This document shows, piece by piece, positions 4,260 to 45,481 of a DNA stretch of 64,000 bases. This stretch comes from a virus: the IMG/VR virus record IMGVR_UViG_3300032286_000510, positions 1 to 64,000 of that record. The stretch is one strand, 5' to 3'. The position numbers and the translations under genes are program-made. The notes beneath the pieces are model-generated. The model was not told the origin of the DNA and ran no database searches. It was given only the letters and a program-made list of their open reading frames with translations. Each line of letters begins with the position of its first letter. The first letter of the stretch is position 1.

Positions 4260-4490
4260 ATGGAAGTTCTTGAGATTAGCACCTCTGGTGCGATTGCTAA
4301 ACTTTCTTTCAATACTGAAACCAGTGAAGTTGGTGTGGCATATACTTACAAACCTGATAAGTTCTATCTTTTCAAGTGTGATAGTATTGATGGTTTCAAA
4401 GACAAACTTTACACTGCTTTTGATAATGGAGAAAGTGTTGGTAAGATGATTTCTCAAATGAAGAAAGATGGTGTCCTCGTGACTGTCTAG
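4260..4490 (+). CDS. KTSC-like small protein, 76 aa
   Basis: The beta-rich sequence with VGVAYTYKPDKFYLFKCDS followed by ESVGKMISQ resembles the small KTSC domain common in phages and bacteria; the family's role is unknown. It is the only gene behind the early cassette promoter and is followed by tRNA genes. ATG 4260 was chosen because it is closest to the usual N-terminus; a second ATG lies 14 bases upstream in another frame. Confidence 0.6.
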   Translation: MEVLEISTSGAIAKLSFNTETSEVGVAYTYKPDKFYLFKCDSIDGFKDKLYTAFDNGESVGKMISQMKKDGVLVTV

Positions 4491-4505
4491 TTTTTTATTT
4501 TTTCT

Positions 4506-4578
4506 GCTCCTTTAGCTCTCTGGCGAAAGCACCGAACTCATAATTCGGCTAAGGTCGGTTCGATCCCGACAAGGAGCA
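4506..4578 (+). tRNA. tRNA-Met (CAT)
   Basis: Acceptor GCTCCTT/AAGGAGC, anticodon loop CTCATAA on the stem CCGAA/TTCGG, T arm GTCGG/CCGAC, discriminator A. Could instead be tRNA-Ile2 if the C34 is lysidine-modified. CCA is not encoded. Confidence 0.9.
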
Positions 4579-4579
4579 C

Positions 4580-4608
4580 TTGGCAATCATAACTTTCTGT
4601 GGTATGAT
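4580..4608 (+). promoter_or_regulatory. Sigma70-like promoter for tRNA
   Basis: TTGGCA (4580-4585), 17-base spacer, TATGAT (4603-4608), 9 bases before the tRNA-Leu gene. Confidence 0.55.
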
Positions 4609-4617
4609 TGTCTCATC

Positions 4618-4691
4618 GGGAGGGTAGTCCAACGGCAGGAGACACCAAACTTAAAATTTGTCCAGTGCGGGTTCGAATCCCGCTCCTCCTA
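4618..4691 (+). tRNA. tRNA-Leu (TAA), short variable arm
   Basis: Acceptor GGGAGGG/TCCTCCT (two G-U pairs), anticodon loop CTTAAAA, T arm GCGGG/CCCGC. The variable region is only about 5 nt, although bacterial tRNA-Leu normally has a long variable arm. Confidence 0.8.
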
Positions 4692-4695
4692 TCAA

Positions 4696-4703
4696 AATAA
4701 ATA
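4696..4703 (+). promoter_or_regulatory. Late promoter variant
   Basis: AATAAATA is 28 bases before ATG 4724, the same spacing as the other late genes. Confidence 0.5.
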
Positions 4704-4723
4704 TAAGATATTGAAACACAACA

Positions 4724-5008
4724 ATGTCTTATAAGTTTAAAATCACTCACGCATACTGTTGGTACGATCAATGCAGTATGATTGTGAAAATGTACTTTAT
4801 TCAGGACATTCCATTTACCTTTGATGAACTTCCTGAAGAAGCAATATATGATAAAGAACTGATTGAAATTGCGAATAAGTATTACCACTATGAACCAGAA
4901 GATTTGTATAAAAATTCATTCTATCTTATAGATGAGGAGGCACATCCTTGTCTTTTTGATTTGGAATTGGAAAACCCAGAAGATATGCCTTTATTTAATG
5001 AATACTGA
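4724..5008 (+). CDS. Hypothetical acidic protein, 94 aa
   Basis: A soluble protein with several aromatic residues (YCWYDQC, ANKYYHYEPEDLY) and an acidic C-terminal half. It has no targeting peptide and no motif that I recognise. It lies between a tRNA and a head-protein gene and appears to be late-transcribed. Confidence 0.65.
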   Translation: MSYKFKITHAYCWYDQCSMIVKMYFIQDIPFTFDELPEEAIYDKELIEIANKYYHYEPEDLYKNSFYLIDEEAHPCLFDLELENPEDMPLFNEY

Positions 5009-10256: not shown

Positions 10257-10327
10257 GGGGGATTAGTTAAACGGTATAACGGGTGCTTTGCAAGCACTTA
10301 TTAACAGTTCGATTCTGTTATTCTCCA
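10257..10327 (+). tRNA. tRNA-Ala (TGC)
   Basis: Acceptor GGGGGAT/ATTCTCC, loop TTTGCAA on GGTGC/GCACT, T arm AACAG/CTGTT. Directly followed by the tmRNA acceptor piece. Confidence 0.88.
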
Positions 10328-10332
10328 TTGTC

Positions 10333-10387
10333 CAAGAGGATGAGAAGTCTGATGTTTCGGACAGAGTTTCAATTACTCTCATCTCCA
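10333..10387 (+). ncRNA. ssrA: tmRNA acceptor piece (permuted gene)
   Basis: The segment contains the tmRNA-type TTCGGAC, a T arm AGAGT/ACTCT with loop TTCAATT, then the 3' acceptor strand CATCTCC and discriminator A. Its acceptor strand pairs with GGGGGTG at 10394-10400 (7 bp, two G-U), and GATGAGA can pair with TCTTATC of the coding piece. The acceptor half therefore lies upstream of the coding half, the circularly permuted two-piece form known from the marine Synechococcus/Prochlorococcus lineage. Exact ends are estimates. Confidence 0.8.
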
Positions 10388-10393
10388 TTACTT

Positions 10394-10630
10394 GGGGGTG
10401 CCAGGTTTCGACGGAGCATAAAGGTCTTATCTGTTGACGGGACAAGTCCATAAACGCAAACAACATTGTTGCTTTCTCTCGTCAAACCGCATTGGTTTGA
10501 ACTAAACGAGTGAGGGGGTTATAAGTTTCCTTCTTACCCAAAACTTACAAGAGGGTGTAATGCCCTCTATTTTTGTGTCTATTTGAACTCGTGCAAAAAA
10601 TGCACAGGTTCATCTTGTGACGGTCTTTGA
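10394..10630 (+). ncRNA. ssrA: tmRNA coding piece with 14-residue tag
   Basis: It begins with acceptor strand GGGGGTG and the tmRNA signature GGTTTCGACGG. The tag frame starts at GCA 10456 and reads ANNIVAFSRQTALV, then TGA (10498-10500). Cyanobacterial tags of this type end in -VAA, so the two final alanines are missing here. After the stop, pseudoknot-like pairings are visible: GGGT/ACCC, TAAGTTT/AAACTTA, AGAGGG/CCCTCT, and a GTGC/GCAC hairpin near 10595. It would rescue stalled ribosomes; whether tagged proteins are degraded is doubtful without the -AA end. The 3' end is an estimate. Confidence 0.82.
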
Positions 10631-30769: not shown

Positions 30770-32014
30770 ATGATTCAACCTATGAAACTCTATCCCTACC
30801 AGCAAACTGCCTTAAATGCCATTCAGCAGCACAATAAAGGTGTCGTTGTGATTCCTACTGGTGGTGGCAAAACAGTAGTGATGATGGAAGATGTAAAAGG
30901 CAAACTGCTTGCATCTACCTTACCGCTCACAGTTGTGATTGTGTGCCCTCGTATTATGCTTGCAACACAACTTTGTAGTGAGTTTGAAGAGTATCTCAAA
31001 GAGTTTTCAATTTCTATCTCTCACGTTCATAGTGGTGAAACTCATTATCATTCTACGACTTCACCCGGAAATCTAAAAGCACAAAGTGCGATTGTAAAAG
31101 CACTCAATCATCATCACTTTATCTTTACGACTTACAACTCACTACAACGTGTGAATGAGTCAGGAATCACTTTGGACGTGGTGTATTTTGATGAAGCACA
31201 TCATTGTGTGAAACAATCTAACTTCGTTGGTGTTGCACAAACATCTGCAAGTTCTAATGCTGCGTATTTCTTCACTGCAACTCCACGAGTGAATAATACA
31301 CCACAATCTATGAATAATACTGATGTGTATGGTCAAAAGATTGTATCTATTCCTGCACAAGAACTGATTGATGTTGGTAGTATTATTCCCCCACAAGTTG
31401 AAGTGTTTGAGCATAGTCATACACGTACAAAGTTCAATGCTGCGTATGTTGATTCAGAGAACGTGATTGATATTCTTTCTTCGTTTGATGAGACTGGAAC
31501 ACATAAAGTTCTTGTTGCTGCACCATCTACCAAAGTAATCTGGGAAATGGTATCACAATCTGATGCTCTTCATCGTTTGAATGAAATGGGTTATGAAGTT
31601 CTGCATATCACCAGCAAGCACGGTGCTTATATCGGCAAGAAGAAAGTATCCCGTGAAGTATTCTTTGATACACTCACTGATTATGGCAACGACCCAGACA
31701 AAAAGTTTGTGTTGATGCACTATTCAATTCTTTCAGAAGGAATGAATGTATCAGGTCTCACTCATTGTATTGTTCTTCGTAATCTTCCAATGATTGAGAT
31801 GTGCCAAACTATTGGTCGTGTAGTTCGTATGCACCGTGATGACCGAAAAGCAATCATAGATGGTAAGATTGCAGCAGGACAGTTTCAATTCTATAAGAAA
31901 CCATATGGTAAGATGATTGTGCCAGTCAATCAGGGTTTGGGTAAGAACATTCTACGTCAACTTCAAAATGTTGTTGATGCTGTGTTTGTAAAAGGAGAGT
32001 TCACTGCTACATAA
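30770..32014 (+). CDS. SF2 (DEAD/DEAH-type) helicase, 414 aa
   Basis: Helicase motifs in order: Q-like LYPYQQTALNAI, Walker A PTGGGKT (near residue 30), DEAH in VYFDEAHH (near 140), motif III FFTATPR, motif V region HYSILSEGMNVSGL, and motif VI QTIGRVVRMHR. The architecture matches the compact SF2 helicases of T4-like phages, of which UvsW is one (recombination and replication restart). No extra nuclease domain. The start is 10 bases after the -10, so the leader is very short; ATG 30782 is an alternative. Confidence 0.85.
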   Translation: MIQPMKLYPYQQTALNAIQQHNKGVVVIPTGGGKTVVMMEDVKGKLLASTLPLTVVIVCPRIMLATQLCSEFEEYLKEFSISISHVHSGETHYHSTTSPGNLKAQSAIVKALNHHHFIFTTYNSLQRVNESGITLDVVYFDEAHHCVKQSNFVGVAQTSASSNAAYFFTATPRVNNTPQSMNNTDVYGQKIVSIPAQELIDVGSIIPPQVEVFEHSHTRTKFNAAYVDSENVIDILSSFDETGTHKVLVAAPSTKVIWEMVSQSDALHRLNEMGYEVLHITSKHGAYIGKKKVSREVFFDTLTDYGNDPDKKFVLMHYSILSEGMNVSGLTHCIVLRNLPMIEMCQTIGRVVRMHRDDRKAIIDGKIAAGQFQFYKKPYGKMIVPVNQGLGKNILRQLQNVVDAVFVKGEFTAT

Positions 32015-36125: not shown

Positions 36126-36545
36126 ATGTCTAACACTCTCACGATGAACTACAAAGAACTTTATTCTCAGGAAACTGTTGATAAAATTGAAGAACTGATT
36201 GCTGATTCTTATGCTCTGGATGATATTGTAGATTTCATTGCTGAAACTTCGGAAGAATCTTTCCGCAGTTATTATCAAACCTATGTTGAAACTGGTGAAG
36301 AGTATTCTTATGAAGCAGTAGATGCTTTCATTGAAGAGTTTGGTCTTCATTCTTTGGTTGGTGATAACTTTCAAGATGCTTATCTGGGTCAATATGATTC
36401 CAAAGCAGATTATGCCGAGCAATATGTAAGTGAATGTTATTCTGTGGAAGTTCCTAGTTTTGTGGAAGTTGATTGGGAAGCAACATTTGATAATATGGAT
36501 GTTGTAATGAGTGATACTGGTTATGTGTTTGACAATCAATTCTGA
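36126..36545 (+). CDS. ArdA-like antirestriction protein, 139 aa
   Basis: The middle and end follow the ArdA pattern: FIEEFGLHSLVGDNFQDAYLGQYDSKADYAEQYVSEC, then VEVDWEATFDNM. The protein is very acidic, as expected for a DNA mimic that blocks type I restriction enzymes. It would protect incoming phage DNA and fits an early promoter. The N-terminal 50 residues are less typical. Confidence 0.55.
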   Translation: MSNTLTMNYKELYSQETVDKIEELIADSYALDDIVDFIAETSEESFRSYYQTYVETGEEYSYEAVDAFIEEFGLHSLVGDNFQDAYLGQYDSKADYAEQYVSECYSVEVPSFVEVDWEATFDNMDVVMSDTGYVFDNQF

Positions 36546-40023: not shown

Positions 40024-40080
40024 AATAAATGTATTAAAAAACATTATGTGTTGATTTGTTAATGATTTGTTAATTGTATC

Positions 40081-40184
40081 TTTATGTGTTAATGAGTTCT
40101 TCTATCTGTTAATGCTTGATTGAACCTTCTACTTTATGTGTTAATGAGTTCTTTTATCTGTTAATGCTTGATTGAACCTTCTAC
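40081..40184 (+). repeat. Tandem direct repeat, 2 x 52 bp
   Basis: Two adjacent copies (40081-40132 and 40133-40184) differing at one base. Each contains GTTAATG twice; further GTTAAT motifs lie just upstream (40058-40076), giving an iteron-like look. Confidence 0.85.
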
Positions 40185-40295
40185 TTTTTATGGGTCTAAG
40201 CCCGCTAATTATAACACAAACCACCTCAAATGTCAAGTATTTCCAGACACTTGCACAACTGGCACAAGGCATCAACATAATATTCTGTCTTGTGC

Positions 40296-40301
40296 TATAC
40301 T
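40296..40301 (+). promoter_or_regulatory. -10 element before the DnaA-box cluster
   Basis: TATACT preceded by a CTGGCAC cassette remnant (40259-40265). It points into the box cluster, with no gene behind it. Confidence 0.45.
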
Positions 40302-40337
40302 ATAAGGGAACGATTCTCTATAGGGGGAACTGATAGG

Positions 40338-40500
40338 TTTTCCACAGGTTATACACAATAGTTTTCCACAGGCAATTAACAAATCCCAGTGATTGCAGTG
40401 GTTTATGATTTTTACCCTGTGGAAAACTTTTATACTTTTTCCACAGGTTATCATAAAGTTGTGGAAAACTATTATACTTTTTTCACAACCCTGTGGAAAA
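40338..40500 (+). other. Cluster of DnaA-box-like sites (TTTTCCACA)
   Basis: Six exact sites: 40338-40346, 40362-40370 and 40437-40445 on +, and 40418-40426, 40460-40468 and 40492-40500 on -. Near-matches are TTATACACA (40349) and TTTTTCACA (40479). TTTTCCACA is the DnaA-box form of cyanobacteria as I know it. Such a density in 163 bp suggests host DnaA binding, for replication start or regulation. Confidence 0.65.
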
Positions 40501-40588
40501 CTATCATAAGAACATCTAATTCGTGCTATCAGATACTTCGTGTAATCCTATACTATCAGTTATTCTTATAGATCTTCGTCTTTTGCAT

Positions 40589-40634
40589 ACCTAGGGATAT
40601 GTTTCGTGTATTAGAATCAAGCAGTACTAAATGG
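40589..40634 (+). repeat. TTTCGTGTATTAGAAT repeat, copy 1
   Basis: First of three direct repeats (others 40815-40872, 40891-40948). Core ACCTRGGGRTATGTTTCGTG then TATTAGAAT, ending CTAAATGG. Confidence 0.8.
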
Positions 40635-40814
40635 TTCTTAATAAGCACCACTGTTTGATACTTAACACACTGACAAAATATACTAGATTGCATTTCGTTT
40701 ATTCTATTATACTTTGCAACTTCGTCAATATTTTATAGTATTAGGCAGTGCTTCGTGTTATAGTATAGCTTACTCATTCGTTTATGCAGGGAGGATAATG
40801 TTCTTAAATATAAT

Positions 40815-40872
40815 ATACCTGGGGGTATGTTTCGTGTATTAGAATCAAATTGCACTAAATGGACAGTTATAT
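40815..40872 (+). repeat. TTTCGTGTATTAGAAT repeat, copy 2
   Basis: Nearly identical to copy 3 over 58 bp, including the GGACAGTTATAT end. Confidence 0.8.
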
Positions 40873-40890
40873 CGTCGCCTTCGTTATAGC

Positions 40891-40948
40891 GTACCTGGGG
40901 GTATGTTTCGTGTATTAGAATAAAAATGTCCTAAATGGACAGTTATAT
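40891..40948 (+). repeat. TTTCGTGTATTAGAAT repeat, copy 3
   Basis: As copy 2; in this copy TGTCC/GGACA forms a small hairpin. Confidence 0.8.
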
Positions 40949-41019
40949 TTTGGGGGTTTGTGTTAATTATACGCCCCGTTGCCCGCCCTTAAGGCGTAAA
41001 AGGCGTCCTAACCCCAAAA
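40948..41019 (+). other. GC-rich hairpin
   Basis: TTTTGGGG (40948-40955) pairs with CCCCAAAA (41012-41019), enclosing ACGCC/GGCGT. This is the only GC-rich patch in an AT-rich region. It could be a structured RNA, terminator-like element or protein site. Confidence 0.5.
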
Positions 41020-41208
41020 GCTAATTTAAAGGGTCCCTGTAACCTACAAAACTTTGAAAACGCTCGAACATATACACGTTAATTAAAAAAAATTTCCAGG
41101 ATTCAAAATTCCCACACAGGTTTACACAAGGAACAAAAAATTTTCCCAGAAAAAAACACTCACAAAAGGACAAAAAATACTATATAAAAAGAAACACACA
41201 TTTCAAAT

Positions 41209-41566: not shown

Positions 41567-42322
41567 ATGGCAAAAGGTTTTACGGTAAAGGCAGCAGCAC
41601 CCAAATCTTCAAATAACAATGAAGATGATTTTGATTTAGCATCAGCAAAACAAGCAATACAAGGAAAATCAATTGTATTTTGTCTTCCTGGACGAGGAGT
41701 ATCATATACTTTTCTAAAAAACTTCGTTCAATTGTGTTTTGATCTAGTTCAATCTGGAGCAAGTATTCAGATTTCACAAGATTACAGTTCAATGGTGAAT
41801 TTTGCTCGTTGTAAAGTTCTTGGGGCAAATGTTCTCAGAGGACCAAAGCAAGTTCCTTGGGATGGTCGTTTAAAGTATGATTATCAGTTATGGATTGATA
41901 GTGATATTGTATTTGATACTGAAAAGTTTTATCGTCTTGTTTCAATGAATAAGGACATTGCAGCGGGATGGTATTGTACTGAGGACGGAATGACCACCTC
42001 AGTTGCTCATTGGTTAGACGAAGATGATTTCAGAGGCAATGGTGGAGTGATGAATCACGAAACCTTAGAAACGATGGGCAAACGTCGCAAGATGTTTACA
42101 GTTGATTACACAGGTTTTGGATGGGTACTCATCAAGAATGGAGTCTTTGAGAATCTTGAATATCCCTGGTTTGCACCGAAGATGCAAGTCTTCGAATCTG
42201 GTGAGGTTCAGGACATGTGTGGTGAGGATGTCTCATTCTGTCTAGATGCAAAAGAAGCAGGATTTGAGATTTGGTGTGATCCAAAGATTCGTGTTGGACA
42301 TGAAAAGACTAGAATCATTTGA
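41567..42322 (+). CDS. GT-A type glycosyltransferase, 251 aa
   Basis: After a low-complexity N-terminus, SIVFCLPGRGVSYTFLKNFVQLC starts the Rossmann-like nucleotide-sugar fold. LWIDSDIVF near residue 108 is the DxD metal motif. Later GEDVSFCLDAKEAGFEIWCDPKIRVGH matches the acceptor-side end of these enzymes. It would transfer a sugar from a nucleotide donor, to phage protein, DNA or host surface. Such genes are usual near tail genes in cyanophages. Confidence 0.8.
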   Translation: MAKGFTVKAAAPKSSNNNEDDFDLASAKQAIQGKSIVFCLPGRGVSYTFLKNFVQLCFDLVQSGASIQISQDYSSMVNFARCKVLGANVLRGPKQVPWDGRLKYDYQLWIDSDIVFDTEKFYRLVSMNKDIAAGWYCTEDGMTTSVAHWLDEDDFRGNGGVMNHETLETMGKRRKMFTVDYTGFGWVLIKNGVFENLEYPWFAPKMQVFESGEVQDMCGEDVSFCLDAKEAGFEIWCDPKIRVGHEKTRII

Positions 42323-43193: not shown

Positions 43194-43595
43194 ATGGCAG
43201 TAACAATTTCTCGCAGTTTTAAAGATATTAGTTTGTCTTTTGCGAGACATCCAGTTACAAATGATGTAACCATTCTCAAAAATGAGGATGCAATCAAAAG
43301 ATCTGTCATAAATTTGGTCAGAACTCGCATTAATGAAAGATTTTTTAATAGTTTGTTGGGTTCTTCTGTGGATAATTCATTATTTGAACTCCAATCTTCT
43401 GGTGTATCTTCATTTTTACAAGAAGAAATCACATCACTTCTCGAAAACTTTGAACCTAGAATTAGATTAAGAAGTGTTGTGATTGATACTCCAGAAGATT
43501 CTAATGATTTAAATATTCGTATTTCTTATGATATTGTTGGTTTACCATTTCCAACTCAAAATATAGAATTCATCTTACAACCAACTAGAGTATAA
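43194..43595 (+). CDS. 25: Baseplate wedge protein gp25
   Basis: The 133-residue length and fold pattern fit the gp25 (GPW/gp25) family: SFKDISLSFARHPVTNDVTILKNEDAIKRSVINLVRT, then ERFF...GS, and LLENFEPRIRLRSVVID. In T4 it forms part of the wedge core with gp6 and gp53 next to the tail-sheath initiation site. The stop overlaps the gp6 start (ATAATGG). Confidence 0.9.
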   Translation: MAVTISRSFKDISLSFARHPVTNDVTILKNEDAIKRSVINLVRTRINERFFNSLLGSSVDNSLFELQSSGVSSFLQEEITSLLENFEPRIRLRSVVIDTPEDSNDLNIRISYDIVGLPFPTQNIEFILQPTRV

Positions 43596-45481
43596 TGGCA
43601 TTCAATCAGTTTACCAACTTAGATTTTGGCGATCTACGAACTCAGATTAAAGATTATCTGAGAACAAATTCTAATTTTACTGATTTTGATTTTGAAGGAT
43701 CCAACTTTTCGGTCCTGATTGATATTCTTGCTTATAATAGTTACATTACATCATACAATACCAATATGGCTATCAATGAGTCATTCATTGATAGCTCCAC
43801 ATTAAGAGAAAATGTAGTTTCTTTAGCAAGAAATATTGGTTATGTGCCAAGATCTGTTAAATCCGCAAAAGCAAAGATTAGTTTTAGTGTAGATGTTAGT
43901 AATATTAATACAAGATTAGTAAAATTGAATGCTGGCGTAGTTGCTTTGGGGTCAGTTCAAGGCGGAAATTATATTTTTTCAATTCCTGAAGATATTTCAG
44001 TAACACCAAATCAAAATGGAATCGCAATATTTGATAATGTCGAGATTTATGAAGGAACATTTTTAAATAAGACCTTTAATGTAGATAATTCGCAAACAAA
44101 TGCAAAATATATCTTACCAAATGCAAATATTGACACCTCAACAATTAGAGTTTCTGTTACTGGCACCACAACAGAGAAATATGAACTCTATACAAATATT
44201 TTTGCAGTAGAACCAAACTCAAAAATCTTTTTAATTCAAGAAATTGATGATGAAAAGTATCAAATTTTGTTTGGTGATAATATTTTTGGAAAAAATCCAG
44301 ACAATGGCAGTAAAATTACTGTATCATACATTATAACAAATGGAATTGATGGTAATGGTGGTGCAAATTTCACATTTTCTGGCAATTTATCTTATATTGA
44401 GAATGGAATTACTAAACCAGTCACTTCCGGCATATCTCTCCTAACAACTCTACAATCGTCTGAAAACGGTGATAGCATAGAATCTATAGATACTATCAAA
44501 TATCTTGCCCCAAGGGTCTACGCATCGCAATATAGGGCAGTTACGTCTAATGATTATACAAGTTTAATTCCATTTTTATATTCAAATGTTGACTCGGTAA
44601 GCGCATATGGTGGAGAAGAACTTGATCCTCCACAATATGGCAAAGTTTACATTACAATTAAACCAAAAAATGGTGAAACTCTTTCCGATATTACGAAAAA
44701 TTCAATCAAAAATGATTTAAAGAAGTATACAGTAGCAGGTATTAAACAAGAATTTATTGATTTGAAGTATTTGTATGTCGAATATGATTCCACGGTATCA
44801 TATGATCCAAGTTTTATATCAAATAAAGAAAATCTCCATACAAGAATTCAATCAGCAATCAATTCGTATTCAAAATCTTCTGATATTAATTCCTTCGGTG
44901 GAAGGATTAAATATAGTAAGATGATTTCATTGATTGATAATGTGGATAAGGGAATAACTTCAAATATTACTCTCTTAAAAATGAGAAGAAACCTTTCTCC
45001 TGCATATAATGCACTTGCTAACTATGAATTATGTTTTGTAAATAAATTTCACGCAGATGTTTATGGATTTAATATCCGTTCGACACCATTCAAAATAAGT
45101 GGAGTGGATAACGATATATATTTGACCGATCTTCCGGATGATTCAACAGGAAAAACAGGAAAAATTAAATTTTTTACTTTAATAAACGGATCTCCAAATT
45201 TTATCAATAATAATGCTGGAACAGTAAACTACGAAAAAGGAGAAATTATACTATATCCCGTAACTATTACATCTACAACATCTTCTGTTGGAATTGAGAT
45301 TGAAGTTGTTCCGGATTCTAATGACATTATTGCAAAAGAAAATCTTTACATTATCCTAGATACTACAAGTAATAGTTTACTAAATCTTATAGAAGATCCC
45401 ATATCTTCCGGATCTAATAAATCTGGAAATTCTTACGTTCCACCTTCTAGTTTTACAAGCAATAAAAAGTATACGAGATAA
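43595..45481 (+). CDS. 6: Baseplate wedge protein gp6 (baseplate J-like)
   Basis: 628 residues, close to T4 gp6. The start FTNLDFGDLRTQIKDYLRTNSNFTDFDFEGSNFSVLIDIL and LRENVVSLARNIGYVPRSVKSAK are characteristic, and VTSNDYTSLIPFLYSNVDSVSAYGGEE marks the baseplate-J-type domain. gp6 dimers tie the wedges into the ring that rearranges on contraction. Adjacent to gp25 as in T4-like cyanophages. Confidence 0.9.
   Translation: MAFNQFTNLDFGDLRTQIKDYLRTNSNFTDFDFEGSNFSVLIDILAYNSYITSYNTNMAINESFIDSSTLRENVVSLARNIGYVPRSVKSAKAKISFSVDVSNINTRLVKLNAGVVALGSVQGGNYIFSIPEDISVTPNQNGIAIFDNVEIYEGTFLNKTFNVDNSQTNAKYILPNANIDTSTIRVSVTGTTTEKYELYTNIFAVEPNSKIFLIQEIDDEKYQILFGDNIFGKNPDNGSKITVSYIITNGIDGNGGANFTFSGNLSYIENGITKPVTSGISLLTTLQSSENGDSIESIDTIKYLAPRVYASQYRAVTSNDYTSLIPFLYSNVDSVSAYGGEELDPPQYGKVYITIKPKNGETLSDITKNSIKNDLKKYTVAGIKQEFIDLKYLYVEYDSTVSYDPSFISNKENLHTRIQSAINSYSKSSDINSFGGRIKYSKMISLIDNVDKGITSNITLLKMRRNLSPAYNALANYELCFVNKFHADVYGFNIRSTPFKISGVDNDIYLTDLPDDSTGKTGKIKFFTLINGSPNFINNNAGTVNYEKGEIILYPVTITSTTSSVGIEIEVVPDSNDIIAKENLYIILDTTSNSLLNLIEDPISSGSNKSGNSYVPPSSFTSNKKYTR

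Follow-up and report, generated by a model that had tools for sequence, protein, structure and literature searches.

A dense array of sites resembling the DnaA boxes of cyanobacteria lies at positions 40,338–40,500, on both strands, of the viral DNA analysed here, and we consider it about an even chance that host DnaA assembles on this array into a nucleoprotein complex, the array being one part of a composite origin at which T4-like cyanophages begin to replicate. The DNA, hereafter the window, comprises bases 1–64,000 of the 78,931-base-pair (bp) IMG/VR virus record IMGVR_UViG_3300032286_000510, which is an incomplete genome. Judged by its sequence, the source is a T4-like cyanophage, and its gp6 best matches that of S-SSM7 (58% identity). 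The features computed here are the array itself, its conservation, its fixed architecture, its host-like spacing and flanks, its fixed place and its concerted evolution.

Neither the site nor the mechanism of replication initiation has been settled for the abundant T4-like cyanophages. According to a review, one theta origin had been predicted, for Syn9 only, and its sharing by other phages was unknown (PMC2984593); the passages found in a comparison of 16 cyanomyovirus genomes are silent on both an origin of replication and DnaA (PMC3037559). We found no paper on DnaA-box arrays of cyanophages in the open-licence literature, subscription papers lying outside the search. The array suggests that T4-like cyanophages borrow or soak up the replication initiator of their hosts, and it provides a concrete, conserved candidate locus in the cultured phages Syn9, S-PM2, P-SSM7, Syn33 and S-RIM2. 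If host DnaA is used, phage replication would be tied to initiation control in the main photosynthetic bacteria of the ocean, and it would no longer hold that T4-like phages initiate without DnaA.

Clustered boxes and their likeness to host DnaA boxes

The nine-mer TTTTCCACA occurs six times within 163 bp, three times on each strand (40338+, 40362+, 40418−, 40437+, 40460− and 40492−), in agreement with the count and coordinates of an earlier note on this DNA. Two looser boxes fitting TTWTNCACA, TTATACACA at 40349+ and TTTTTCACA at 40479+, lie between the exact ones, and two successive inverted pairs of the form TGTGGAAAAC-WTTATACTT-TTTYCACA, 28 bp each and 42 bp apart, span 40418–40487 (repeat families D6/I2). 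The description of the region as gene-free also holds, as no convincing gene was found in 40024–41208, where the open reading frames (ORFs) are short and overlapping. The whole window contains nine exact copies of TTTTCCACA versus 1.9 expected from shuffled sequences, none of 100 shuffles reaching nine, which places the excess in the 40338–40500 cluster. In the 78.9-kb record, TTTTCCACA is the most locally clustered of all nine-mers, and among 1260 nine-mers of the same letters no other exceeds three copies per 163 bp. The genome is AT-rich, so that chance or base composition might be invoked; this is hardly credible, as the count lies far above both the shuffles and the permuted nine-mers, and the conservation of the cluster in dozens of contigs already refutes it.

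TTTTCCACA is identical to the published cyanobacterial DnaA box, and purified domain IV of DnaA binds cooperatively to groups or pairs of such boxes (PMC4674748). We compared the phage sites with loci next to dnaN in genomes of the cyanobacterial phylum. Several of these loci carry clusters of TTTTCCACA, others clusters of TTATCCACA or TTGTCCACA; position 3 is the one that distinguishes these host box types. Same-strand spacings in the phages peak at 11–12, 20–22, 31–33, 43–44 and 54–55 bp, and those in the host loci fall at 11–12, 20–22, 30–33 and 51–56 bp. Divergent 19-bp pairs occur in both, and the flanking consensus GTTTTCCACAGGnTTt is common to phage and host boxes. In sequence, flanks and helical spacing the phage sites thus resemble the DnaA boxes of the hosts, and the cyanobacterial type assigned to them in the earlier note is borne out on these grounds. 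Capture of a host oriC was considered and rejected: the core pattern of the phage array (described below) gave only seven unrelated matches in genome contigs, and neither core nor spacer was found in the host genomes searched.

Unrelated viral contigs of about 55% GC (L588–L666), in which no T4-like gp6 or gp25 was detected, likewise contain TTATCCACA in convergent pairs that are conserved, the spacer being 45 bp long in most. Phage DnaA-box arrays are thus a wider phenomenon, of which the cyanophage case is a variant.

Conserved architecture, place and concerted change of the array

Because no phage record matched the window locus by BLASTN, a pattern approach was needed. Relatives were gathered by way of gp6 or the neighbouring glycosyltransferase, and the loci so related often have boxes clustered at the corresponding position; a search for such conservation had been proposed in the earlier note, and the cluster proved to be conserved in many related phages. 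Alignment and pattern scanning defined a convergent core at 40362–40426, consisting of GTTTTCCACAGG, a 43-bp spacer (AGTGATTGCAGTGGTTTATGA) and CCTGTGGAAAAC; in the aligned relatives, the spacer contains AGTGTTTGCAA..GGTTTATAAGA between the same two boxes. The core pattern, TTTTCCACAGG-N-CCTGTGGAAAA with a spacer of 38–48 bp allowed, was found in 61 other viral contigs, with spacers of 43 bp in 53, 44 bp in seven and 47 bp in one. In L261, L272, L289 and L304 the spacer sequence is unrelated and the length of 43 bp is kept, so that spacer length seems to be constrained. Where neighbours are recognisable, the core lies upstream of the glycosyltransferase, gp25 and gp6 genes in nearly all contigs, with gp6 identity down to 49%. 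One record, G001 (L331–L345, 284,050 bp), looks chimeric: it contains related phage stretches in two diverged versions, and a separate box cluster accompanies each, at 29.3 kb and 239.1 kb.

Tight groups, defined by neighbouring boxes no more than 40 bp apart, were sought by scanning the whole records of 27 isolates of cyanophages and of two Kyanoviridae with other hosts. Such groups occur in 11 isolates (Syn9, Syn33, S-RIM2, S-PM2, P-SSM7, S-CAM22, S-ShM2, S-RIM44, P-TIM68, DSL-LC02 and DSL-LC03) and in neither of the two non-cyanobacterial Kyanoviridae. Every isolate group lies 2.5–8 kb upstream of gp6, that of DSL-LC03 being 6 kb upstream of the glycosyltransferase, and no tight group was seen elsewhere in these 11 genomes. 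An identical 23-bp convergent pair is present in five of them, which are therefore probably homologous in this respect rather than independent. Small predicted ORFs overlap the boxes in some isolate annotations.

The arrays, which in the contigs hold up to 12 exact boxes each, could act as a decoy like datA of E. coli, titrating host DnaA as phage genomes multiply, with the position of the array being incidental; new rounds of host chromosome replication would then be stopped and nucleotides freed. The number of boxes per array is in line with this, as are the high copy number of phage DNA late in infection and the gain and loss of arrays among relatives described below, which fits an accessory function. 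Titration, however, would require neither a spacer of exactly 43 bp nor one constant location next to a conserved element across many genera, and in the larger records the exact boxes lie mostly within the cluster and are rare outside it. The fixed architecture and the fixed position by the conserved element make a cis-acting role more plausible to us than titration alone, and we regard the decoy as unlikely, although the sequence alone cannot separate use from titration of host DnaA.

L175, the window's closest relative, with a glycosyltransferase that is 98% identical, seemed at first to be boxless. In fact the core is shared, with TTCTCCACA in place of the usual box at all five sites, and L175 retains the array of TTCGT motifs and the conserved element which adjoin the boxes in the window. 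This variant core was found in no viral contig other than L175. The joint change indicates that one protein most likely reads all the sites of L175, and in general the sites most likely evolve as targets of a single protein; the reader in L175 could be the DnaA of an unsampled host or a phage protein. The latter possibility, that a phage-encoded initiator or regulator with a DnaA-box-like site binds the array and host DnaA is uninvolved, would accommodate the joint change, the convergent 56-bp geometry, unseen in the sampled host origins, and the lack of any oriC-like TTCTCCACA cluster among 386 genomes of the cyanobacterial phylum, six of which have close pairs that were not examined as oriC. 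It is nevertheless decidedly unlikely in our estimate, because the exact host consensus, flanks and spacing speak for host DnaA and because no DnaA-like gene was found among the window proteins scanned, which represent part of the ORFs of an incomplete genome. In L175, the stretch 4300–5000, after the variant boxes, holds an insert apparently encoding a GIY-YIG-type homing endonuclease-like protein, as judged by eye.

Repeats, conserved element and neighbouring genes

The earlier note also mentioned iteron-like repeats, and three kinds of repeat are present. A 52-bp tandem direct repeat in two copies, with TGTTAATG units (40080–40183, plus strand, family D2), lies just upstream of the boxes. 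Eleven TTCGT motifs follow the boxes at 40520–40911, on the plus strand only (40520, 40537, 40575, 40603, 40694, 40721, 40752, 40777, 40831, 40880 and 40907), and three direct repeats of about 64 bp, at 40581, 40809 and 40885, contain part of this motif array. Over 41 distinct loci, TTCGT (often TTCGTNATA) reaches 20 per kb within 250 bp after the core, solely on the gp25-directed strand, as compared with 0.2–0.5 per kb upstream of the core and 0.4 per kb for the complement. The TTCGT array is the sole dense one in the window's own record, in G003 and in G001; as an array it is absent from Syn9, Syn33, S-PM2, S-RIM44 and DSL-LC03.

A conserved non-coding element, present in the window as a divergent copy at 41015–41110 on the plus strand (TTTAAAGGGTCCCTGTAACCTACAAAACTTTGAAAACGC...AATTAAAAAAAATTTCC), lies further downstream. 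Its consensus reads tAAAA-N5-aACTACCCTAACCTACAA..., followed about 50 bp on by an A-rich tract, and it carries a TATAAAAA tract at a fixed distance from an invariant ACTACCCTAACCTACAA. At least 120 matches were found in viral contigs, and the element is present in most isolates looked at; copies outside the window include L255:5413, L256:5085, L257:5607, Syn9 53507 and Syn33 47290. Its core occurs in 15 of the 27 cyanophage isolates, on the strand of gp6 and 2.8–7 kb upstream of that gene. Each such record has a single copy, apart from one in which a second, weaker match occurs, and neither of the Kyanoviridae of non-cyanobacterial hosts has the core. RNAalifold gave zero folding energy for 92 non-redundant sequences, which provides no support for a structured RNA at the element, and an Rfam scan found no RNA family at the box locus. 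In several phages a ribosome site and a start codon follow closely 3′ of the element, which is perhaps a promoter or the start of an origin transcript.

The boxes peak 250–1000 bp upstream of the element, at distances ranging from about +50 to −1600 bp. DnaA or another protein bound to the boxes might regulate a promoter-like element 0.25–1 kb downstream that precedes the genes leading to gp25. Such transcriptional control would suit the fixed distance between the TATAAAAA tract and ACTACCCTAACCTACAA, the lack of RNA structure and the closely following translation signals, but distances so variable, and often of 500–1000 bp, are long for direct regulation, and we regard this explanation as quite unlikely.

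The interval that harbours these features is bordered upstream by a DNA helicase gene (30770–32014, plus strand, phrog_16) and leads downstream to a glycosyltransferase-like gene (41567–42322, plus strand, phrog_1574) and the baseplate wedge genes gp25 (43194–43595, plus strand, phrog_261) and gp6 (43595–45481, plus strand, phrog_219). The same helicase-to-gp25 interval is found in P-SSM7, S-CAM22, S-ShM2 and Syn9, the helicase being labelled 'T4-GC 36 helicase' in isolates; that of the window may be called UvsW-like by its place, which does not prove identity with UvsW. Elsewhere in the window, a protein encoded at 36126–36545 and kept in many relatives shows a sub-threshold match to antirestriction ArdA (Pfam E 5e-5), and 17300–18781 encodes a DUF7788/DUF2828 protein assigned to 'RNA-binding protein' in PHROG. 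A permuted cyanobacterial-type transfer-messenger RNA (10298–10591; Rfam cyano_tmRNA, 115.9 bits) with the predicted tag ANNIVAFSRQTALV sits within a cluster of about 24 phage tRNA genes.

A candidate composite origin and its relation to known systems

We infer a sequence of DnaA binding, DNA opening and origin activity along the following lines. Cooperative binding of host DnaA to the boxes, which are helically phased, and to the convergent core, which is fixed, would come first; the bound DnaA would then bend or remodel the TTCGT repeats and AT-rich sequence next to it. The phage helicase-primase would thereby be helped to begin the first rounds of phage DNA synthesis, and recombination-dependent replication would take over after these DnaA-assisted rounds. 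A more specific proposal, to which we give somewhat less than an even chance, is that of a hybrid origin at the place of T4 oriF, combining DnaA boxes of the host type, arrayed in a fixed geometry, with TTCGT repeats confined to one strand and the cyanophage-specific element that carries the invariant ACTACCCTAACCTACAA. The boxes would track the site preference of the initiator that the phage uses, as the switch from TTTTCCACA to TTCTCCACA suggests.

Several observations weigh against an origin that uses host DnaA. The array is not universal, as 16 of the 27 isolates have no tight group, and no exact box lies within 2.5 kb in 34 of the 86 element loci with enough flank, among the matches listed. 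On a tree of the glycosyltransferase, the box label has switched a minimum of 7–11 times, indicating that arrays have often been gained or lost. The convergent 56-bp pair was not seen in the sampled host loci, and no oriC-like cluster of the L175 variant TTCTCCACA was found in the 386 genomes of the cyanobacterial phylum, in which close pairs of it are rare (six genomes). The array itself shows no strong unwinding element by average AT content, which climbs only mildly 450–800 bp downstream; an AT-rich tract is present in the conserved element. A change of GC skew at the cluster had been proposed as a check in the earlier note; cumulative GC and AT skew were computed, and in none of seven sequences did the GC skew turn at the array, a weak test that is uninformative rather than refuting, because almost all genes point the same way and the amplitude was near that of a random walk. 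To our knowledge, T4-type replication does not need DnaA.

The candidate composite origin shares features with several known systems. It resembles cyanobacterial oriC in the same nine-mer, the flanks, the 11/21/31-bp phasing and the presence of boxes on both strands, and differs from it in lacking dnaN, in its convergent 56-bp pair, whose 43-bp spacer is conserved, and in the added TTCGT array and cyanophage-specific element. The datA locus of E. coli, which titrates DnaA, likewise has DnaA boxes clustered outside the chromosomal origin, whereas the cyanophage array resides in a phage genome and has a conserved place and architecture. In T4, the R-loop origin oriF, or ori(uvsY), is located at uvsW-uvsY-25, and the cyanophage array similarly lies between a helicase gene and gene 25 with a promoter-like element nearby; T4 origins, in contrast, use a middle promoter and an unwinding element, and we know of none with DnaA boxes. 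The iteron origins of plasmids and prophages that also need DnaA, such as P1 oriR and pSC101, provide a further parallel. No Rep initiator gene was named among the window proteins scanned, most small ORFs of this incomplete genome lying outside the scan. As in P1 oriR and pSC101, DnaA boxes in the cyanophage locus adjoin a directional array of short repeats, with the difference that these repeats are irregularly spaced and belong to a lytic T4-like phage.
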